From: Bacilli bacterium
GTDB taxonomy: Bacteria; Bacillota_I; Bacilli_A; RFN20; CAG-826
Direction: 5' to 3'
NCBI GenBank assembly: GCA_017531065.1
Contig: JAFXLR010000004.1
Coordinates: 1-10,776 of the forward strand
DNA: 10,776 nt
Part shown: positions 3 through 10,776 of the stretch, one piece after another
Numbering within the stretch: position 1 is the first letter of the stretch
Layout of the letters: each line of letters starts with the position of its first letter
The notes under the pieces: generated by a model
What the model was told of the DNA's origin: nothing
Databases searched by the model: none
Seen by the model: only the letters and a program-made list of their open reading frames with translations
Made by a program: the position numbers and the translations under genes

Positions 3-1082
3 TGCAATGAGCAATGGAGAATCTGCCGCCCAAAGAACGATTTCAAAGGCTGGCTCCCCTACTGGAAGAAACAAGTCGAATCTTCTAGGAAGGTCGCTAG
101 AAAGATGATGAAGGAAGGGCAGACCCCTTATGACACCTGCCTCGATTCCTATGAGCCAGGGAATAACGAGGCCTTCATCGATTCCATCTTCAACCCATTG
201 AAGGAAACCCTCATCCCATTACTCAAAAAAGCCAAGGAAAAACAAAAATCCTATGCAATTCCTGCTTTAAAGAGCTACGACAAGATCAAACAGAAAGAGA
301 TGTCCTTAAGGATGCTTAAGGCTATCCACTATGATTTGAACAAAGGCGCTCTCATGGAATCCGCCCACCCATTTAGCGACGCTTTGGCGAAGAATGACGC
401 CAGAGTCACCACGAAATTCCTCATCGAAGACTGGAGAAGCAATGTCTTCACTTGCCTCCACGAAGGCGGCCACGCCCTCGAGTTCCAGAATTGGAGTGAA
501 GAGATGTTCGAGAACCATGTCGAGAATATGGCCACAAGCGCAATCTGCGAGACCCATAGCCGTTTCTTCGAGAACATCATCGGAAGAAGCAAAGCCTTCA
601 TGCCAATCCTTCAGAAAGAAGCCGCTCTGGCTCTCGATTCAGAGTTAGGAAAGATTCCTGCCGATGACTTCTACCACCTCATGAATGAGATCCAGCCATG
701 GCTCATTAGATGTGAGGCGGATGAGCTCTCATATTGCCTCCACATCATCATCCGTTACGAGATCGAGAAAGACCTCATCAACGGCAAGATCGAATGCGAG
801 GACGTCCCTGCTATCTGGAAGCAGAAATACCACGATTACCTTGGTGTTGAAGTTACTAGTGACAAAGACGGCTGCATGCAAGATACCCACTGGTCCGAGG
901 CCTTATGGGGCTACTTCCCTTCGTACGCGTTAGGAAACCTCTATGGCGCGATGATCAAAGAGAAGATTGAAAGCGAGATGGACTTCGAAGGTGCGATAAA
1001 AGATAACCGCATCGATAAGATTGTTAAGTGGATGAGAGAGAAGGACTCTACGACTATCTCAAACCTAACGATTGGATCATGA
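3..1082 (+). CDS. M32 family (Taq-type) metallocarboxypeptidase, 5'-truncated and frameshifted near its 3' end
   Basis: Zinc carboxypeptidase of family M32, a cytosolic enzyme that trims single residues from peptide C-termini. The frame is open to the left edge; residues before the first internal ATG (105) read WRICRPKNDF, matching the conserved NDF region near the N-terminus of M32 enzymes, so the true start lies outside the window. Numbering from the ATG at 105: HPF at 98-100, the NDARVTT element near 97-103, zinc motif HEGGH at 119-123, third ligand E149 in CETHSR (26 residues after the second His, as in M32), then IRYEIEKDLING (216-227) and QDTHW (259-263). The family is about 500 residues. 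This frame stops at 1080-1082 with a non-homologous end (KDSTTISNLTIGS), while the expected C-terminus continues in another frame to 1147. No signal peptide is visible. Family assignment is very secure; whether the gene is intact is not. Confidence 0.93.
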   Translation, partial: CNEQWRICRPKNDFKGWLPYWKKQVESSRKVARKMMKEGQTPYDTCLDSYEPGNNEAFIDSIFNPLKETLIPLLKKAKEKQKSYAIPALKSYDKIKQKEMSLRMLKAIHYDLNKGALMESAHPFSDALAKNDARVTTKFLIEDWRSNVFTCLHEGGHALEFQNWSEEMFENHVENMATSAICETHSRFFENIIGRSKAFMPILQKEAALALDSELGKIPADDFYHLMNEIQPWLIRCEADELSYCLHIIIRYEIEKDLINGKIECEDVPAIWKQKYHDYLGVEVTSDKDGCMQDTHWSEALWGYFPSYALGNLYGAMIKEKIESEMDFEGAIKDNRIDKIVKWMREKDSTTISNLTIGS

Positions 1083-1228: not shown

Positions 1229-3904
1229 TTAATGTTTCCACATATGGACTTCGACATTGTCGTTGTCGATTTCCTCGGTAGGGCTGTATTGTGTGAACGC
1301 TACTAGATATGTTCTTCCGGCGACCATGTCAGAGATTGTTACCTTGGCGTCCATATTTCCTGCGCTATCATCATCCTTATACATAGTTCCTGTGTAAGTA
1401 TCAATGACATATAGATAGGAATCAAAATCGCTTGATAGTTCGATGGAATGCCTTCCGCTCGTGGATGGGCTGTAGTTAAACATTGAGAGCTTATATCTTT
1501 CACACCATAATCCGTAGTAGAAGTTGTCAGATACAACTTTCTCTAAGGACATTGCAGTGTTATATGGATTCCAGTTCGTCGTGAACGCAAGCGGTCGAGA
1601 TACAATTAATTTGTTATCCGTCAAAGAAACACCTCCCATAGCCTTCACTTTTAATTTATAGGGAACATTTGCTTGCAGGTTATATCTAAGGAAACCATTG
1701 TAGTAGTACCCATGCGCCTGGTAACCAGAACGAAGGGACGATTGGGCTAACAATGAATTGCTGTCATTATAAAGGTACAGATAAGTTCCCTCTGGTCCAA
1801 CCGTTTGGAAAACCACTTCTCCCGACCTTGAAGAGGTAATCGTGTATGCAATTGATTGTTCGACTCCAAGATAGATCGGCCTAAACACAATTCTTGAGCT
1901 TGCAGAAAAAGATACAGACTCTGTCAAATCGGCTAGTTTTGGTTTTTTAATCAAAAGCAAGTCTGAGTTATAACCTCCAGTGTTCCTATCTCCATTGTTC
2001 TGAAAGCTCGTGACCCTTATGTAATAGGAGCTTGAATACGAAGCGAGCAATGTATCCCACTTCGCGTGATCATAAGTACTTAACCTAATGGATTCGTTGT
2101 TTGTGGGAATAGTAAACAAAGGGGTCCGATATCCATCATAAAACGTGATCTCGTAGTTGTTTGAGTAAAAGGCCGGCTTTCCTGTATCTAACGTCCCGTT
2201 ATTGTCGTAGACAGCATTGGTCTTTCTCCAATGAATCAACGGAGATTCATTAAAAGTACCGACTCCATCCACTATAGGATTTGGCGAAAAACCATATTCA
2301 GACATTAACCTGCCGAAGAAATTTATTTCATCAAACGAGTGAGTCGAATAGAAATAATGAGCGAAATCGTCAAAAGTGCTCAGAGATCCGTTCTGAGCAG
2401 CGCCCATCATCAAATCCCAGAGGCCTTGGTGGCCTAAACTAAATGAATCATGTTGTTCGTTGTAAGGATCATATAAATCGTAAAGAACTGCTATAGCAGC
2501 CCATTCATACCCCTCGCCATATTTATATGAACAAGTCTCCAAATCAATAGGGCTACCTTCGTGGTCATAAAAATGATCGATTCCCGAATAGTTGTTAAAC
2601 TCGCCAGAAAAATACTGACCAACCATATTTCCGAAAACAGTAGGCCAAGCTTCACCCCACGTTAACTTAAGGCCATCCAGTTTTTTCCCTTCCTGAAGGG
2701 CGTATTGCCCAGCTTCGTGCGAACCGCCAAAATCGTTACTGGCAAATTGGAAGAAATGTTGGACATGATGGCCATACTCATGAAGCACTGGATCTGGGTA
2801 ATCATTAGCGGTGTCACCTAAGCGAAGAATTTTTGTACCGGGCAAATACGAACTGCCAAAACCATAAGGGTATACCGCGCTAGCAAAAGACGGATAATTG
2901 CCAGACAAATCATGGACATACTTGGCTCCAAATATTAGAGGCCTCAAGACGAGAAGAGCGCGGCCAAAAGAAGCAGGGATTCCGTCCTTTTCTTCGTTAA
3001 TTGTTATTGTTTTTCCGTACCCTGCTTGGACCAAACTTATATCTTGGTAGTAATATGAGTCGGCATAATCATGGGTCTTTTCAACTCGTATGATCTCATT
3101 GGACGTTCCGAGTTTGCTAAAAGAATAAAGTCTCAAGTGATCCGTTCCTGACGGCAGAGAGGTTTTTAGAATTCTTCCGTTGAGATCGGTTTGAAGAGTT
3201 GTTAACACGTTGCCTTGCTCGTTAAGGCACCCAACGGCAACATATTTAAGTGGTTTTGGGGCAGAATCAGTTTCCTTGAGTTGGAAAGTATAATACGCAT
3301 TCCCAGAAGTGGAAATTGAATAGTCGATAAATGGCGAGTTTCTTTCGTTATTCCTACGGTCAAACTCTTGCATGGTCAGCCTGTTGTTAGCTCTCTCATT
3401 CAACTCAATATACATGTCAGCCTGTTCTTGAGAGATTGTGCTAGCAGAAAATGAGCCATTAAGCCTCGAAACATAAACATCTCTCGACGACATAACATTC
3501 TCGCCTCGATACTTCCCAAGCACGTGAGCGACAAAAGAAAACTTATCCTCTTGTATGAAGTCTTTGAGTTTTATTCCAACTCTGATTCTAGTTTCCGTGT
3601 TTTCTATGACGTAATAGCTTTCAAGATATTTATATGAGTCGTCAATTACTGTGACATCCGTTAACGGTCCGTAATCAATCGGAGCTTCCAATATGAGATA
3701 ATCACGATCGTCGTGGGCAACAGGGGCAAAGAGTTTACCCGCATGCTTTTCATAATTGTATTCAAAACATAGCTCCTCCTGAACTAATGATTCCCTGATA
3801 TCTATATCACCTTTTGGCGCGACTATTGAGTCGTTGCTTGGTTTACCTAAAAGACCGATTACAGGGTTCATTAAAAGAGCTACCAAACCTAGTAGTATTT
3901 TCAT
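1229..3904 (-). CDS. Secreted HExxH zinc metallopeptidase (gluzincin-like) with PPC-like C-terminal domains
   Basis: An 891-residue predicted exported protein. Residues 1-20 (MKILLGLVALLMNPVIGLLG) look like a signal peptide without a lipobox; no LPXTG, SLH or terminal membrane anchor is seen, so it should be released. Residues ~218-262 (GNVLTTLQTDLNGRILKTSL and around) resemble a carboxypeptidase-regulatory-like beta sandwich. The catalytic core has HEYGH at 375-379 and a probable third zinc ligand E418 in WGEAWP, the gluzincin layout, then EWAAIAVLYDLYD (467-479). Residues ~675-755 and ~800-885 are two beta-rich modules; the second (SDFDSYLYVIDTYTG, then DDDSAGNMDAKV) fits the pre-peptidase C-terminal pattern. 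The ATG at 3904 is preceded by GAAAGG at 6-nt spacing. It is monocistronic, with its own promoter and terminator. The exact MEROPS family and substrate are not recognisable; peptidase function is inferred from the motifs. Confidence 0.8.
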   Translation of the reverse strand: MKILLGLVALLMNPVIGLLGKPSNDSIVAPKGDIDIRESLVQEELCFEYNYEKHAGKLFAPVAHDDRDYLILEAPIDYGPLTDVTVIDDSYKYLESYYVIENTETRIRVGIKLKDFIQEDKFSFVAHVLGKYRGENVMSSRDVYVSRLNGSFSASTISQEQADMYIELNERANNRLTMQEFDRRNNERNSPFIDYSISTSGNAYYTFQLKETDSAPKPLKYVAVGCLNEQGNVLTTLQTDLNGRILKTSLPSGTDHLRLYSFSKLGTSNEIIRVEKTHDYADSYYYQDISLVQAGYGKTITINEEKDGIPASFGRALLVLRPLIFGAKYVHDLSGNYPSFASAVYPYGFGSSYLPGTKILRLGDTANDYPDPVLHEYGHHVQHFFQFASNDFGGSHEAGQYALQEGKKLDGLKLTWGEAWPTVFGNMVGQYFSGEFNNYSGIDHFYDHEGSPIDLETCSYKYGEGYEWAAIAVLYDLYDPYNEQHDSFSLGHQGLWDLMMGAAQNGSLSTFDDFAHYFYSTHSFDEINFFGRLMSEYGFSPNPIVDGVGTFNESPLIHWRKTNAVYDNNGTLDTGKPAFYSNNYEITFYDGYRTPLFTIPTNNESIRLSTYDHAKWDTLLASYSSSYYIRVTSFQNNGDRNTGGYNSDLLLIKKPKLADLTESVSFSASSRIVFRPIYLGVEQSIAYTITSSRSGEVVFQTVGPEGTYLYLYNDSNSLLAQSSLRSGYQAHGYYYNGFLRYNLQANVPYKLKVKAMGGVSLTDNKLIVSRPLAFTTNWNPYNTAMSLEKVVSDNFYYGLWCERYKLSMFNYSPSTSGRHSIELSSDFDSYLYVIDTYTGTMYKDDDSAGNMDAKVTISDMVAGRTYLVAFTQYSPTEEIDNDNVEVHMWKH

Positions 3905-4083: not shown

Positions 4084-5151
4084 CTAACGTTCCTCCCGGA
4101 AGTAGTTAACACCAAGCGATCCTGGCGGCAAGACGTTTTTCTTTCCGAATATCGAGGTGAAAATAAGAACAACAACCGTAACGAGGTATGGAATAAGTTC
4201 AAGGAATTTGCCAGTAACCATATCTACCTTGAGATAGCTAGGAATCGAATAGAGGAAAGCAAACAAGATTGAGCCGGCAATAGCGATAAGCGGATTCCAG
4301 ACCGTGAAGATGACAAGAGCGAGGGTCATCCAGCCATATTTCTGAAGGTCAAACGTGCTATCCCAGCTTCCTTGGGACTTGATAAGGTAGAATAAACCGC
4401 CGATACCAGCAATACCGCAACCAATGATGGTCGCGAGGTATCTGTATTTGTCAGTGTTGATGCCAGCAGCATCTGCAGTAGCAGGGTTCTCACCAACAGA
4501 CCTTAAGGATAAGCCAATCCTCGTCTTGTTAAGGACAATGAAAACGACAATGGCCAGAACAAAACAAATATAAACAAGGGAAGGTTGGAAGAAAATATTC
4601 GCTACCGGATTGTTGCTAGAGATGAAACCCATATGCCAATTAGAGTCGTCGTAAACCAAGCCACCAGGGCCAAGTGTTGCGTTGGTTAGGTGGAAGCCGT
4701 AGATTTTACCTACTCTCTCACAGAGATCCGCCCCGTCGCCTTTACGCAAAAGCGACATGAAGAAGTCACCAATGCCAGCACCGAAAGTCGTAATCGCCAA
4801 ACCAGTGACGTTTTGGTTGGCCTTTAGAGTCGTGGTGAGGAACGAGTAAATCAACCCGCCGATAGCACCAAACGCAAAGGAAAAGACAATTCCAAATAGC
4901 AATAACAAAAGATAAGAGATGAATTCAACGAATCCGAACGCATTCGCTGTAACAGGCATCGATGGATAGATGAGATTCATATAGATCAAAGAGCCGAGAG
5001 TGCCGCCAACGACGCCAAAACACATAACGCCTGGAATGCCTAAGTTGAGGTTTCCGGCCTTCTCGCTAATGGTCTCGCCGATACAGCCAAAGAGGAAGAC
5101 AACGCTGAGAGTGATAATGCCCGGAAGTGAACTACCTAAAATATCCAACAT
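4084..5151 (-). CDS. Nucleoside ABC importer, permease 2 (NupQ/BPD_transp_2-like)
   Basis: Inner-membrane permease of 355 residues, one half of the translocation channel of a BMP-type nucleoside importer; the B. subtilis counterpart is NupQ (YufQ). About 8-9 hydrophobic segments are visible, e.g. 10-24, 39-57, 76-104, 192-207, 238-257, 274-301 and 318-335. The cytoplasmic loop RIGLSLRSVGENPATADAAG (211-230) is the conserved ATPase-contacting element of this family, and the N-terminal ETISEKAGNLNLGIPG block is also typical. The ATG at 5151 has AAGGAGGA 8 nt upstream, inside the end of the permease 1 gene, and the two genes are separated by a single base, so they are translationally linked. It is the last gene of the operon. 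The substrate (purine nucleosides) is inferred from the family and the upstream purine riboswitch. Confidence 0.93.
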   Translation of the reverse strand: MLDILGSSLPGIITLSVVFLFGCIGETISEKAGNLNLGIPGVMCFGVVGGTLGSLIYMNLIYPSMPVTANAFGFVEFISYLLLLLFGIVFSFAFGAIGGLIYSFLTTTLKANQNVTGLAITTFGAGIGDFFMSLLRKGDGADLCERVGKIYGFHLTNATLGPGGLVYDDSNWHMGFISSNNPVANIFFQPSLVYICFVLAIVVFIVLNKTRIGLSLRSVGENPATADAAGINTDKYRYLATIIGCGIAGIGGLFYLIKSQGSWDSTFDLQKYGWMTLALVIFTVWNPLIAIAGSILFAFLYSIPSYLKVDMVTGKFLELIPYLVTVVVLIFTSIFGKKNVLPPGSLGVNYFREER

Positions 5152-5152
5152 T

Positions 5153-6481
5153 TTATTTGTCCTCCTTCGCAGATGCGTTTCCTTTATTCATTCTTGGCTT
5201 TTCTTTCTTCGCCGAAATTCTAAAAAGCTTTCTAAAGAAAAGTCCGATTGATTTGAATACCTTTGCGAAAAAGCGACCGACAGGAACGAAGATTTTTTTG
5301 AAGAAATTGGCTACAGGTTTTAAGAAGTTGCCAATGATTTCAAAGACATCAGTCTCTTTTCCGTTCTTGTTATACATGATCTTGTATTCAACCAAGAACT
5401 CGGAAGCGATAACAAAGAGGAAGATAAGACCCATGACGATGTTTGTCGCAGAATCGCCAGTGATGTATCTCGAATTCGACATCTGAACCTGGCTCATGCC
5501 TTTTGTGATAAAGGTAATGAACATGGCGGTCCCTATGGAGATAATCGGGTTAAATTTTGCAAGCCAAACAGCCATGATTGCCGTAAAACCCATGCCTCTA
5601 TGGGTATTTTCTGCGGTAATTGAGAAATCAACGCCGGAAGCGATTAAAAAACCCACGAAACCGCAAAGGGCACCAGAAAGGATAAGCGTACGAATAATGA
5701 CTTTTTTACTATTGATGCCGACATAACGAGCGGTGTTGATAGACTCGCCAACGACACTGAGTTCATATCCGTGCTTGCTGTATTTCAGATAGAAGAATAG
5801 GCCAACAAAAAGGGCAGCAATGAGGATGACAATCAAAACCTTCCCGTTAAAGAGGACTGGAAGTCTACCATATGACTGCGACGGAACGATATTTGATTCG
5901 TCTGGGAATCTCCAATAGATGTAGATACCAACTAAACCAGTCGCAATATAGTTCATCATAAGAGTGAAAAGTGACTCATTAGTGTTAAATAAAGCCTTGA
6001 AAATAGCTGGTATCGCTGCCCAAATAGCGCCAATGATGACAGCGACTACGCCAGAAACAAGCACAATAACAATATCTGGTACCTTGCCGCCAAGCTCAAC
6101 CATAAGCATGATGCAGGCAAGCGCGCCAATAGCGATTTGACCGTTGCCTCCAAGGTTCCAGAATTTCATTTTAAAGGCCGGAATGAGAGCTAGACCCACA
6201 CCAAGGAGGAGTGCGCTATCTCTAAAGAATTCCCAGAACTTGTCCCAGTTGCCAAAAGCGCCTTTGAATAAGTTTCCGAATGAGGCAAACGGATCGATTC
6301 CATAGGCCATTGTCAAAACAAGGAGGCCAAAGAAAATGGCAATGAGGATGAAGGCAAAACGAATGAGGATCGATTGCCAAGTAGCCATGTTGAAACGCTT
6401 CTCAACATGGAAGAGTTTTTTCTTTTCTTTTGTACTTTTCTCGGAAGGAAGCGTTTTAACCGAATTGTTTTTATTAAGCAT
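5153..6481 (-). CDS. Nucleoside ABC importer, permease 1 (NupP-like), with unusual repetitive cationic C-terminal tail
   Basis: First channel subunit, 442 residues from the ATG at 6481; NupP-type proteins are about 350. An ATG at 6496 is also in frame, but the 6481 start has GGAGG at proper spacing, and the 6496 ATG overlaps that same GGAGG and has no good site of its own. With this start the gene overlaps the ATPase stop by 8 bp. The body has a ~35-residue basic N-terminal extension, then 9-10 hydrophobic segments between ~38 and 361, and the conserved KHGYELSVVGESINTARYVG loop (236-255). From ~365 a soluble tail follows, with 11-residue-periodic repeats (ANFFKKIFVPV, GRFFAKVFKSI, GLFFRKLFRIS) and a charged end. 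It would pair with permease 2 in the membrane. Permease assignment is secure; the tail's role is unknown. Confidence 0.93.
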   Translation of the reverse strand: MLNKNNSVKTLPSEKSTKEKKKLFHVEKRFNMATWQSILIRFAFILIAIFFGLLVLTMAYGIDPFASFGNLFKGAFGNWDKFWEFFRDSALLLGVGLALIPAFKMKFWNLGGNGQIAIGALACIMLMVELGGKVPDIVIVLVSGVVAVIIGAIWAAIPAIFKALFNTNESLFTLMMNYIATGLVGIYIYWRFPDESNIVPSQSYGRLPVLFNGKVLIVILIAALFVGLFFYLKYSKHGYELSVVGESINTARYVGINSKKVIIRTLILSGALCGFVGFLIASGVDFSITAENTHRGMGFTAIMAVWLAKFNPIISIGTAMFITFITKGMSQVQMSNSRYITGDSATNIVMGLIFLFVIASEFLVEYKIMYNKNGKETDVFEIIGNFLKPVANFFKKIFVPVGRFFAKVFKSIGLFFRKLFRISAKKEKPRMNKGNASAKEDK

Positions 6482-8207
6482 TGTTTTCGCCTCCATTTGT
6501 TTCTTCTTCCTCTTCTTTTTTCTTGGTCATGAGCAGACCAACTTCCTCTTTCGTCGCGCTTCTAGCATCGACAATGCCAGAAACCCTTCCTTCGCACATG
6601 ACTAGAATGCGGTCGCAAAGGGCAAGAAGAACATCAAGGTCTTCGCCAACGAAGATAACTGCGCTGCCCTCCTGCTTCTCTTTGTCGAGCAAATTATAGA
6701 TAAGGTATGAGGAATTGATATCAAGCCCACGGACCGGATAAGCGGCCATAAGGACTTTTGGAGAAGAGGCGATTTCTCTTCCGACAAGAACCTTTTGAAC
6801 GTTGCCGCCCGAGAGTTTTCGGACTGGGGTATGGAGGTTTGGCGTCACAACATCAAGCTCGTGAACGATTTCTTCAGCAAGAGCCTCAGGCTTCTTCCTG
6901 TTAACCGCGATACCTTTGCCCTTACGGTAGCTACGAAGCATCATGTTATCGATTAAATCCATGTTTCCGACAAGCCCCATGCCCAAACGATCTTCCGGGA
7001 CGAAAGAAAGGCGGACTCCAAGTTCACGAATGGTTCTTGGGTTGAGGTTGCGGAGGTTATAGATTTCGTTCTCATTAAAGATAACTTTCTCTTTGTTGAC
7101 GAGTTCTTTGATTTTCTTACTGCTCATGCCAGTGAAATCAACAGGTGTTCCATCTTCATAATGGAAAGCGCCGTTTTTGGCCATATTCACGACTTCACGG
7201 TAGGTCTTATGGAAGAAAGAGACGGGAAGATTCTTTTTTGGGCGATTGAAGATGACGTCGCCTTTATAGCCTGGCTTGACGCCAGCGATGGCTTCAAGCA
7301 ACTCACGCTGACCGCTTCCAGCGATACCTGCGATTCCAAGGATCTCTCCAGAACGAGCAATGAAATTTATATCATCAAGCACTTTCGTGCCGTCTTTATT
7401 TGTTAATGAAAGGTGCTCGACAAAGAGACGGTCTTCCATGTCTTTTGGTTCGGTACGTTTGATATTGAGAACAATCTTTTTGCCAACCATCATTTCCGTG
7501 AGTTGGGCTTCGTTGGTCTCACTTGTTTTGACCGTATCGATGTACTGCCCTTTACGGAGGACGGCAACCCTGTCTGAAATCTCCATAACCTCATTAAGCT
7601 TATGGGTGATGATTATGATTGTCTTGCCGTCTTTTCTCATGTTTGTGAGAACGGAGAAAAGCTTTTTGATTTCAATTGGGGTCAAAACTGCAGTCGGTTC
7701 ATCAAGGATAAGTATTTCCGCCTCGCGGTAGAGAGTCTTCAGGATTTCGAGTGTTTGTTTTTCTGAAACGGAAAGGTCGTAAACTTTTTTATCAAGGTTG
7801 ATTTCAAAACCATAACGGTCACAAAGGTTCATGACAGCTTTTCTGGCGTTGCTCTTGTTTGCTTTTTCTTTGTTGGTAATTCCAAGAATGATGTTCTCTA
7901 GACAAGTGAAGACATCAATAAGCTTGAAGTGTTGATGGACCATGCCGATCTTAAGCCGGAAAGCATCCATCGGCGAAGCGATCGTCACTTTTTCCCCATT
8001 GACATAGATTTGTCCTTCGTCAGGGAAATAGATGCCGGAAAGCATGTTCATGAGAGTGGTCTTACCACTGCCGTTCTCTCCTAAGAGGGAAAGGATTTCG
8101 CCTTTGTAAACATCAAAAGTAATCTTTTCATTCGCTACAACTGAGCCGAATGTTTTGGTGATGTTTTCGAATCTTATGCTTATGTCTTGCTGAACAGTGT
8201 TTTCCAT
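6474..8207 (-). CDS. Nucleoside ABC importer, tandem ATPase (NupO/RbsA-type, two nucleotide-binding domains)
   Basis: Cytoplasmic energy subunit with two fused ABC domains, 577 residues from the ATG at 8207. Domain 1: Walker A GENGSGKT (43-50), Q-loop in MVHQHF, signature LSVSEKQ (145-151), Walker B ILILDEP (165-171), H-loop THK (H202). Domain 2: the family's usual degenerate Walker A (GIAGSGQ, ~294-300), canonical signature LSGGNVQK (465-472), degenerate Walker B VLMAAYPVRG and a GEDL switch region. A ~58-residue insertion (about 322-389) makes it longer than the ~510 usual for NupO. The tail is acidic (EEEEE). An in-frame TTG at 8225 is possible but lacks a ribosome binding site; the ATG has GAGG about 12 nt upstream, rather far, which may mean weak initiation. 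The gene lies 101 nt after the binding-protein gene, with a hairpin between them. Confidence 0.95.
   Translation of the reverse strand: MENTVQQDISIRFENITKTFGSVVANEKITFDVYKGEILSLLGENGSGKTTLMNMLSGIYFPDEGQIYVNGEKVTIASPMDAFRLKIGMVHQHFKLIDVFTCLENIILGITNKEKANKSNARKAVMNLCDRYGFEINLDKKVYDLSVSEKQTLEILKTLYREAEILILDEPTAVLTPIEIKKLFSVLTNMRKDGKTIIIITHKLNEVMEISDRVAVLRKGQYIDTVKTSETNEAQLTEMMVGKKIVLNIKRTEPKDMEDRLFVEHLSLTNKDGTKVLDDINFIARSGEILGIAGIAGSGQRELLEAIAGVKPGYKGDVIFNRPKKNLPVSFFHKTYREVVNMAKNGAFHYEDGTPVDFTGMSSKKIKELVNKEKVIFNENEIYNLRNLNPRTIRELGVRLSFVPEDRLGMGLVGNMDLIDNMMLRSYRKGKGIAVNRKKPEALAEEIVHELDVVTPNLHTPVRKLSGGNVQKVLVGREIASSPKVLMAAYPVRGLDINSSYLIYNLLDKEKQEGSAVIFVGEDLDVLLALCDRILVMCEGRVSGIVDARSATKEEVGLLMTKKKEEEEETNGGENNA
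7041..7244 (-). other. Insertion within the second ATPase domain
   Basis: Between GDVIFN and the conserved PEDR block, members of this family normally have roughly 33 residues; here there are about 92. The extra part is lysine-rich and mixed helical (for example KTYREVVNMAK and SSKKIKELVNKEK). One stretch, DGTPVDFTGMSSKKIKEL, itself resembles the normal G-x-DITGLSPRKIREL element, so the extra sequence may be inserted on both sides of it. The reading frame is continuous. Confidence 0.6.
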
Positions 8208-8235
8208 AGGAGTATTATGCCTCAAAAACGAGAAA

Positions 8236-9521: not shown

Positions 9522-9570
9522 CTTTTTTCTCCTAAATGGATTCGATAATTGCTCAAACAGGAGAAACAAG
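9522..9570 (-). promoter_or_regulatory. Predicted Shine-Dalgarno-sequestering hairpin (riboswitch expression platform)
   Basis: On the minus strand CTTGTTTCTCCT (9570-9559) is complementary to AGGAGAAAAAAG (9533-9522): 11 pairs with one G-A mismatch, including 8 perfect pairs over the AGGAG ribosome binding site. The loop is 25 nt. No U-tract follows, so it does not look like a terminator. A competing pairing exists: AGACTT (9573-9568) is complementary to AAGTCT (9644-9639) in the J2/3 region of the aptamer, and TCGTA (9599-9595) to TACGA (9614-9610) in P1. Ligand binding would block these and leave the sequestering strand free, an OFF switch. The pairings are visible; the mechanism is inferred. 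Confidence 0.6.
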
Positions 9571-9606
9571 TCTAAACATCAAAGCACAAATCTTTACGAT
9601 CTTGTG

Positions 9607-9672
9607 ATTTCGTAGTGTTGGATTAAGGTCCAACGTAGAGACTTCCCACCGATTAGGGCAATTATACGAAAT
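9607..9672 (-). promoter_or_regulatory. Purine riboswitch aptamer, guanine/hypoxanthine class
   Basis: On the minus strand P1 is ATTTCGT/ACGAAAT (9672-9666 with 9613-9607, perfect). J1/2 begins ATAAT. P2 is short (CCC/GGG, with a G-A mismatch and a U-A pair outside), and its loop carries the conserved GG (9650-9649). J2/3 reads AAGTCTCTAC, with the U47 and U51 equivalents. P3 is GTTGGA/TCCAAC, with loop CCTTAA whose CC can pair with the GG of L2. J3/1 is ACT, whose C (9615 on the plus strand is g) corresponds to C74, the guanine-class specificity base. It is placed 90 nt upstream of the nucleoside-binding lipoprotein gene, a fitting target. Confidence 0.92.
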
Positions 9673-9692
9673 GTCGATTTAGCGATTCGACA
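9672..9692 (-). repeat. Small 5' hairpin next to the riboswitch
   Basis: TGTCGA and TCGACA form a 6-bp stem around a 9-nt loop immediately upstream of P1, sharing one base with it. It lies at the expected 5' end of the transcript and could protect the leader from degradation or help the aptamer fold. Confidence 0.4.
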
Positions 9693-9697
9693 CATTG

Positions 9698-9726
9698 AAT
9701 ATAAACCACCCTAAATGAAAAAACTA
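9698..9726 (-). promoter_or_regulatory. Weak candidate promoter of the nucleoside transporter operon
   Basis: TATATT (9703-9698 on the minus strand) is well placed to start transcription just before the leader hairpin and riboswitch. The -35 position at 17-nt spacing (TAGTTT) is a poor match. An alternative -10, TATGAT, lies at about 9738-9733, also without a good -35. A promoter must exist between 9672 and 9960, but its exact site is uncertain. Confidence 0.35.
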
Positions 9727-9990: not shown

Positions 9991-10776
9991 TTAGAAGTTT
10001 TCTGGGTGATAATCGCGGAGGACTTTCTCTAAAGGCTTGATCGTTTTGGCGAGGACGCCTTCATCGAATGGAACCTCAAGACCAACTTTCTTCACAAGCT
10101 CACAGAAGGTGTATTTGCCACCGAGCTTGCAGAGTTTGATGTACTTCTTCCACGCGTTTTCGTGTGAACGTCTGTCCTTATTGAAGAACATGAACGCGCA
10201 TACCTGTGCGAGAGTGTAATCGATGTAATAGAACGGCAACTCGAAAATGTGGAGCTGGGTGAGCCAACGGTGACCGGTGTAAAGGTACTCGCAGTTTCTT
10301 TCCGCCTCAACCTTCCATGGGGTGTATTTCTCTTCGATCTTGTGCCACTGCTCATCTCTTTCCGCTGGTGTGGCCTCTGGGTGAGCGTAGACCCAATGCT
10401 GGAACTCATCGACGGAGACGCCATATGGGAGGAAGCAAATCGAATCGGCAAGATGAACGTAACGGTATTTGTCAGGTTCATCAAAGAAGAGATCCATGTA
10501 TGGCTCAGCGAAGAATTCCATCGACATGGAGTGGATTTCGCAGCTCTCAGCAGTTGGAGAACGATACGCTGGAACCTTGATGTCGGCAGACTCGAAAGCC
10601 TGGAAGGAATGTCCGAACTCATGGGTAAGGACATCGACGTCACCAGAGGTGCCGTTGAAGTTCGAGAAGATGATTGGGGTTCTCTGAACTGGGAAGTAGG
10701 TCATATAACCACCGCTTTGTTTGCCAGGTTTGGCATCGAGAAAGAGGAGGTTATGGTCGTTCATGTAACGGAAGTA
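9991..10776 (-). CDS. M3-family oligoendopeptidase (PepF-like), 5' end outside the window
   Basis: C-terminal part of a zinc oligoendopeptidase that cleaves short peptides in the cytosol. The frame is open through the right edge (YFRY precedes the internal ATG at 10764), so at least the N-terminal half is missing; full M3B enzymes are about 560-600 residues. Numbering from that internal Met: GGYMTYFP (18-25), IIFSNFNGTSGDVDVLTHEF (31-50), zinc motif HEFGH at 48-52 and third ligand E76 in CEIHS, at the standard spacing for the family. The C-terminal helical region (LPFYYIDYTLAQVCAFMFFN) is also typical of pepF/M3 enzymes. A terminator follows the stop closely. Nothing suggests damage in the visible part. 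Family assignment is secure; specificity and exact subgroup are not. Confidence 0.93.
   Translation of the reverse strand, partial: YFRYMNDHNLLFLDAKPGKQSGGYMTYFPVQRTPIIFSNFNGTSGDVDVLTHEFGHSFQAFESADIKVPAYRSPTAESCEIHSMSMEFFAEPYMDLFFDEPDKYRYVHLADSICFLPYGVSVDEFQHWVYAHPEATPAERDEQWHKIEEKYTPWKVEAERNCEYLYTGHRWLTQLHIFELPFYYIDYTLAQVCAFMFFNKDRRSHENAWKKYIKLCKLGGKYTFCELVKKVGLEVPFDEGVLAKTIKPLEKVLRDYHPENF

Follow-up and report, generated by a model that had tools for sequence, protein, structure and literature searches.

The window, that is the whole stretch of 10,776 nucleotides that was analysed, carries on its minus strand a guanine-type riboswitch followed by the genes of an ABC importer (Table 1). A nucleoside importer had been proposed here from the sequence, and the Pfam matches to Bmp, ABC_tran and, twice, BPD_transp_2 agree with that assignment. 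Genes for an M32 carboxypeptidase (3-1082, plus strand) and an M3 peptidase (9991-10776, minus strand), both open-ended, lie at the flanks, with a terminator-like hairpin downstream of the M3 peptidase gene (9984-9968). An 891-aa secreted-looking protein (1229-3904, minus strand) has a HEYGH metallopeptidase-like motif and gave no Pfam match at E 0.001. Elsewhere in the genome two PNP_UDP_1 matches and seven phosphoribosyltransferase-domain matches above the cut-off were found; such enzymes might convert guanosine taken up by the importer to guanine, which would then act back on the riboswitch. PurE is also present, which leaves de novo synthesis possible.

Table 1. Features of the importer locus and of its leader, in window coordinates.
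Feature	Position	Strand	Evidence
Permease	4084..5151	-	Pfam BPD_transp_2, E 1.4e-28
Permease	5153..6496	-	Pfam BPD_transp_2, E 3.1e-25
ABC ATPase, two ABC_tran domains	6474..8225	-	Pfam E 2.3e-41, two stretches; coordinates of a mechanical ORF beginning at TTG; the actual start could lie further in
BMP/PnrA-type lipoprotein, substrate-binding protein, 402 aa	8309..9517	-	Pfam Bmp, E 9.6e-20
Shine-Dalgarno (SD) AGGAGAAA, 3' arm of predicted sequestering hairpin	9526..9533	-	Local fold
GCAAUUAUCGAA, complement of UUCG(U)AUAAUUGC (P1 5' strand, J1/2, P2 5' strand)	9541..9552	-	RNAduplex -12.3 kcal/mol, fold, shuffles
UUUCUCCU, 5' arm of predicted SD-hiding hairpin; alternatively inside anti-aptamer fold	9559..9566	-	Folds
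AGACUU, complement of AAGUCU (P2 3' end and J2/3)	9568..9573	-	Fold of pre-SD transcript
Small hairpin CACAAGAUC/GAUUUGUG, directly 3' of P1	9585..9606	-	Pre-SD folds with and without aptamer enforced
Guanine riboswitch aptamer, P1 to P1, 66 nt	9607..9672	-	cmscan, 50.4 bits against cut-off 37
C74 equivalent, expected guanine partner	9615..9615	-	Sequence, RF00167 alignment
P3-L3 arm: 6-bp P3, 6-nt L3 CCUUAA (9623-9628)	9617..9634	-	Sequence
J2/3 GUCUCUAC with U47 (9641) and U51 (9637)	9635..9642	-	Sequence, RF00167 alignment
P2-L2 arm: weak P2, 6-nt L2 AAUCGG (9649-9654)	9643..9661	-	Sequence, RF00167 alignment
P0 hairpin UGUCGA/UCGACA, abuts P1, likely mRNA 5' end	9672..9692	-	Fold of 27-nt upstream window
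Possible -10 box TATATT	9698..9703	-	Sequence, conservation in near relatives; transcript start expected ~5-8 nt further on

The window was searched against Rfam with cmscan at the gathering threshold, yielding one match, RF00167 (purine riboswitch), at 9689-9593 on the minus strand (50.4 bits, E 2.5e-6, full length; gathering score 37 bits). This is also the single RF00167 match in assembly GCA_017531065.1 (955,899 bases, 83.5% complete). The earlier note had placed a guanine-class purine riboswitch here and had suggested this covariance-model search on the minus strand as the check; the match lies above the cut-off, and the interval that the note gave runs exactly from P1 to P1. The aptamer is almost certainly guanine-class. 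P1 is a 7-bp helix (AUUUCGU/ACGAAAU) and J1/2 is UAUAAU. P2 consists of two U-A and three G-C pairs (UU, bulged G, CCC with GGG, AA), and a U-U mismatch of P2 closes L2. P3 is GUUGGA/UCCAAC. J2/3 has a single change, U48 to C; U48 is solvent-exposed in xpt. L2 retains its GG and L3 its CC, each loop being one residue short of the 7-nt RF00167 consensus in the alignment. U22, U47, U51 and C74 are all canonical by sequence and alignment, including U47, which we take to be a ligand-contact position. The first description of the core, with six-base loops and three G-C pairs in P2, was thus accurate. Ligand contacts of purine riboswitches are made by U22, U51 and C74 (PMC9295807, in excerpt). The aptamer is an ordinary member of its class; what departs from the usual is its expression platform.

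Relatives were gathered for comparison. In the window's genus the riboswitch occurs in 19 of 37 genomes; a Bmp-family gene occurs in 17 of the 37, all 17 among the 19 carriers, and by phmmer the riboswitch lies upstream of a BMP lipoprotein in 17 of the 19 loci. The other two (L024 and L029; riboswitch match at 1501-1599/1600) have an amidohydrolase-type gene behind the riboswitch, assigned by Pfam in L024 and by similar sequence in L029. This protein is perhaps a guanine deaminase, and the P1 3' strand seemingly lies within a terminator there, which would make an ON switch. Across the order, whose relatives are titled Bacilli, several of them from rumen, 98 of 279 genomes gave an RF00167 match. 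The sample comprised 116 loci, 115 of which were parsed (L125 was cut short by its contig), and 67 of the 115 aptamers precede close BMP homologues by phmmer. U47 was found in all 115; U51 and C74 are also in all 115 as a requirement of the parser. All 28 BMP-linked leaders classed as terminator-less (15 from the window's genus, 13 from other genera) were used for the shuffle, segment-complementarity and swap tests. A further 38 BMP-linked leaders were classed as terminator-bearing, partly by eye: a pattern gave 36, and L059 and L063 were added. Controls from the same order were 14 permease-linked and 13 secreted-protein-linked loci. L125 and L026 were left out of the tests. The L026 locus (~1501-1640) contains Ns and lacks, between P1 and a GAACAAUUAUCGAAUCC stretch, the greater part of the platform, possibly through a natural deletion or an assembly fault.

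The secreted-protein-linked group is an observation in its own right: canonical-pocket purine riboswitches precede large secreted or lipoprotein-like proteins at 13 loci of the order (L008, L030, L052, L055, L062, L065, L067, L079, L082, L096, L102, L104 and L119). Pfam searches of three of the 13 gave a Listeria-Bacteroides repeat (L062) and sub-threshold OB-fold matches (L030, L008), and these riboswitches possibly serve nucleic-acid scavenging.

The association with BMP genes extends further. BMP homologues at 89-90% identity come from MAGs titled Bacillales (L129, L130) or Bacilli (L139), and among those at 54-67% some are titled Bacilli or Erysipelotrichaceae, with L132 and L133 titled as rumen samples. 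A simple parser found a purine-like aptamer upstream in 29 of 80 BMP-homologue loci, 16 of the 29 being titled Clostridia, Clostridiales, Ruminococcaceae, Bacillota or Firmicutes. An Rfam scan of 20 BMP-homologue loci gave RF00167 in 6, the match in L177 lying ~800 nt upstream.

Upstream of the aptamer, P0 recurs in relatives at the identical place with differing sequence. By a lax criterion it is present in all 38 terminator-type leaders (median z -2.1), in 20 of the remaining 28 BMP leaders (-1.5) and in 5/14 permease-linked controls (z 0.2), but also in 11/13 secreted-protein-linked controls (z -0.6). The -10 box is a weak candidate: a hexamer with a 4/6 match lies upstream in all groups including the controls, and a sigma-70 scan did not return this site. 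Initial folds of L001 and L013 showed a long pairing of sequence before the -10 box with P2; this pairing was rejected, since the stretch is not expected to be transcribed and the folds of L012 and L016 lack it.

The platform was folded with and without the SD. In the transcript cut before the SD, the minimum-energy fold joins the aptamer 5' half to the platform with 27 expected pairs and lies 9.9 kcal/mol below the aptamer-enforced fold, P3 and the small hairpin surviving inside it. All 16 leaders in the pre-SD folding gave such an anti-aptamer fold; these 16, like the groups in the RNAduplex comparison, had been chosen after the complementarity had been seen. In the local fold the SD of the window is paired at 1.00, against 0.76 in shuffles, of which 0/40 reach 1.00. 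A terminator scan returned no terminator-like site in the window leader (the 9585-9606 hairpin did not score as a terminator), and an intrinsic terminator was ruled out there on that ground.

Folding was also followed over transcript length without ligand, in the window leader and in L014. In the window leader the aptamer is favoured at 89-125 nt (P1 0.51-0.84). The anti-aptamer helix starts to grow at 131 nt and has 27 pairs over the range 155-179 nt; as the start codon is transcribed, at 173-179 nt, SD pairing stands at roughly one half (0.46-0.47). Once the transcript is 185 nt long, with some two codons of the gene transcribed, the SD-sequestering fold prevails in any case. An SD hairpin and an alternative fold are both predicted, and the full leader at equilibrium shows no switch, the SD being paired in both states in the window and likewise in its nearest relatives. 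Equilibrium ensembles of nine leaders gave a clear change of SD pairing in L014, small changes in L023 and L027, and none in the other six. In the length series of L014 the anti-aptamer helix is lost by the time the SD emerges, and the SD is paired at 0.83 at 175 nt. Since the full leader shows no switch at equilibrium and the sequestering fold wins from 185 nt, the proposed mechanism needs kinetic control; kinetic trapping would be the simplest reading of the three phases in the modelled series.

We propose, at a probability of about 0.65, that a guanine-I riboswitch represses the nucleoside ABC importer when guanine is plentiful, by a cotranscriptional strand exchange that acts on translation. 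This model draws on predicted folds. The OFF logic is very probable, and translational switching through a strand that pairs with the aptamer 5' half is probable on the modelled structures. The aptamer, to which the covariance-model match and the canonical pocket point, would form once P1 has been made and could then bind guanine. With no guanine, the next ~70 nt would pair antiparallel with the aptamer 5' half, as the predicted fold, shuffles and swaps suggest, AGACUU first engaging J2/3 and GCAAUUAUCGAA then taking P2 and J1/2. The pocket would thereby dissolve, and the anti-SD strand UUUCUCCU would be trapped before the SD is transcribed. The SD would then emerge at least partly free, and the importer would be made. 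With guanine bound, the aptamer should resist invasion, and free UUUCUCCU would pair with AGGAGAAA and turn translation off.

Complementarity of aptamer segments to the platform was compared between groups. The 5' half pairs with the platform at p<=0.05 in 12/15 leaders of the window's genus, 10/13 of other genera and 23/38 of the terminator group, against 2/14 permease-linked and 2/13 secreted-protein-linked controls. For the P1 3' strand the counts are 1/15, 1/13 and 5/38, with 6/14 and 5/13 in the same controls, and for the 3' half they are 1/15, 0/13, 12/38, 2/14 and 4/13. All these counts overstate the evidence because the relatives are not independent, and several windows and groups were tried, with p values uncorrected for multiple tests. 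Within this one order, the sequence comparison suggests that which of the two switching strands is used tends to follow the class of the gene. These counts bear on the alternative of a conventional guanine OFF riboswitch with switching through P1 as in xpt or yxjA, the 9585-9606 hairpin with CUUUGAUGUUU being a weak terminator and the 5'-half complementarity idle. Most riboswitches do switch through P1 (PMC2258182, in excerpt), and the P1 3'-strand complementarity expected of such a platform is seen in 6/14 permease-linked purine riboswitches of the order; in the window's genus, however, it is found in 1/15 leaders, whereas the 5' half is complementary in 12/15. The nearest relatives retain the hairpin and a U-rich stretch, yet the scan returned no terminator-like site in the leader, and L014, L023 and L027 do not have the hairpin but do have the SD hairpin and an anti-aptamer stretch, in other sequence. 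Switching through P1 is on balance unlikely.

Shuffles and swaps address a second alternative, that the SD hairpin is fixed, or responds to some other signal, and that the complementarity is a by-product of biased leader composition. Dinucleotide shuffles of the window platform gave 4.0 aptamer-platform pairs against the native 27. Over the 28 leaders, at most 5 of 100 dinucleotide shuffles reach the native folding energy in 25 (median z -3.2; L061, L064 and L100 lie within the shuffles), and the number of aptamer-platform pairs exceeds the shuffles in 21. A static hairpin would fit the hidden SD of the window, which is paired at equilibrium with or without the aptamer, the SD hiding beyond shuffles in only 9/28 leaders, and the 7/28 whose pair number falls within the shuffles (L014, L023, L025, L027, L054, L060 and L098). 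It does not account for the weakening of the pairing on exchange of platforms among 17 lineages, in which own pairs averaged -23.3 and swapped pairs -20.4 kcal/mol (permutation p 2e-4, computed after row and column means had been removed). Own platforms are not favoured equally: on its own platform the window's group ranks 6/17, group B 11, L126 13 and L098 15. The same-order controls, which gave no 5'-half signal (2/14 and 2/13), also speak against mere composition, and this second alternative is decidedly improbable.

The complementarity of the 5' half to the platform was located with 12-nt windows. In the window's genus the enrichment is solely at P1-5'/J1-2 (7/15), with J2/3 at 2/15. In terminator-bearing BMP leaders the J2/3 window stands out (27/36 at p<=0.05, median z -3.47), followed by P1-5'/J1-2 (9/36); J2/3 gave 0/14 in the permease-linked controls. 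The prominence of J2/3 indicates that the aptamer core is targeted in the terminator-bearing leaders too. Many of these terminators have next to them the motif GUAGAGGC, which can form 8 pairs, including one G-U, with J2/3 GUCUCUAC. As J1/2 and J2/3 hardly vary, covariation is possible only in P1 and P2. Clostridial BMP-linked aptamers (16 loci, the Erysipelotrichaceae MAG L195 excluded) gave 3/16 for the 5' half, 2/16 for J2/3 and 1/16 for the P1 3' strand, and by these sequence counts they do not share the 5'-half complementarity.

Guanine is by far the likeliest ligand, judged from the pocket. A specificity for nucleosides had been suggested from the compact loops and weak P2, and altered specificity is not supported: the pocket is canonical, and loop length varies across the lineage with no change of pocket. 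In excerpts of PMC8872408, C51 is critical for nucleoside over base in 2'-dG-I and 2'-dG-II, and 2'-dG-II has two extra bases in J3/1 (U75-C76). The window sequence has U51 at 9637 in place of C51, and its RF00167 alignment shows no two-nucleotide insertion in J3/1. The window aptamer shares its architecture and C74 with 2'-dG-I and -II, and altered loops with 2'-dG-I, and differs in lacking their C51 and the J3/1 insertion of 2'-dG-II. Guanine-II and xanthine-II carry insertions in J2/3 and also in J3/1, and in 2'-dG-III each of the three junctions deviates (PMC9295807, in excerpt). Such guanine-II and xanthine-II insertions are absent from the alignment, in which J2/3 and J3/1 have canonical length. 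A permissive search over 311 bases gave RF03165 (2dG-II) a score of 37.7 bits (E 6.3e-8), under its cut-off of 60; RF03165 was the clan member kept there, the lower-ranked clan match being dropped. A 2'-dG or other variant class was rejected on the RF00167 score above its own cut-off, U51 and the RF03165 score below cut-off. The importer gene gives no hint of a nucleoside ligand, because the guanine OFF switch of B. subtilis yxjA also controls a nucleoside transporter (PMC9756952, in excerpt).

A variant that senses a nucleoside (2'-deoxyguanosine or guanosine), at which the compact loops and the nucleoside importer could hint, is therefore very improbable: the changed kissing loops of 2'-dG-I (4 nt against 7; PMC8872408, in excerpt) and the retention of RF03165 as clan member in the permissive search would favour it, but RF03165 stays below its cut-off where RF00167 passes its own, U replaces the critical C51 with no U75-C76 in J3/1, the junctions do not depart as in 2'-dG-III (PMC9295807, in excerpt), and in the order the identical pocket is also found ahead of proteins resembling purine permeases, PurE and amidohydrolases (names assigned by eye, except L024 by Pfam). 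Guanine aptamers given loops like those of 2'-dG-I lost guanine binding more than 50-fold (PMC8872408, in excerpt), and by analogy the 6-nt loops may alter affinity.

The loops and P2 were compared across the 67 BMP-linked aptamers. By automatic parse, L2 is at most 6 nt in 57/67 against 6/48 others, the parse being heuristic with some hand-read 6-nt loops scored as 5 nt, and L3 is 6 nt in 27/67. The P2 5' strand starts (A)UU in 52/67. The last five bases of the P2 3' strand vary (GGGAA 18, GGGUU 13, GGAAA 7, GGGUA 7, others), so that many members have hardly more than three G-C pairs in P2. In sequence terms, a short L2 characterises the BMP-linked aptamers as a group, and a weak P2 occurs commonly among them; neither is confined to the window copy. 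Both are best read as suited to strand exchange and dual coding, rather than as a change of specificity.

Among known systems, the aptamer resembles that of xpt-pbuX (B. subtilis, RF00167 guanine-I) in its three-way junction, ligand contacts and loop GG/CC, and probably in its OFF logic. It differs in the 6-nt L2 and L3 and in a P2 with bulge and mismatch, and its platform is predicted to pair with the aptamer 5' half, not the P1 3' strand, and would control translation instead of termination. For purine riboswitches, the P1, terminator and antiterminator stems have support from covariation (PMC3723493, in excerpt). The yxjA riboswitch, as described in excerpts of PMC9756952, is close to the mechanism proposed here: guanine turns off a nucleoside transporter, strands are exchanged during transcription, and there are natural mismatches and an anti-state helix as intermediate. 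The central helix of yxjA competes with lower P1, the platform staying clear of the junction, and xpt appears similar in leaving the junction untouched (PMC9756952, in excerpt), whereas the predicted alternative helix of the window takes P1 5', J1/2, P2 and J2/3, with SD hiding as its output. The platform of the pbuE adenine riboswitch (B. subtilis) likewise overlaps the ligand-binding core, but with ON logic and through P3 (PMC9756952, in excerpt); in the predicted fold of the window P3 is kept and it is the 5' half that enters the alternative helix. Among openly licensed papers, represented mostly by titles and abstract openings, no purine riboswitch platform pairing with J1/2-P2-J2/3 was found, and none capturing the aptamer 5' half with OFF logic.

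We regard it as an even chance that these leaders represent a separate kind of purine-riboswitch platform across one order, in which an antisense-like strand captures the aptamer 5' half (P1 5', J1/2, P2, J2/3). It would come in two forms, a translational one, as in the window, and one with a terminator, in which mainly J2/3 is captured, the aptamer having been reshaped (weak P2, compact L2) as its bases serve two structures. One aptamer class in one order then seems to use two switching strands depending on the controlled gene, which would offer a natural comparison for how platform and aptamer shape each other. The weak P2 and short L2 would be explicable with no change of ligand, a caution against calling specificity variants from aptamer sequence alone.
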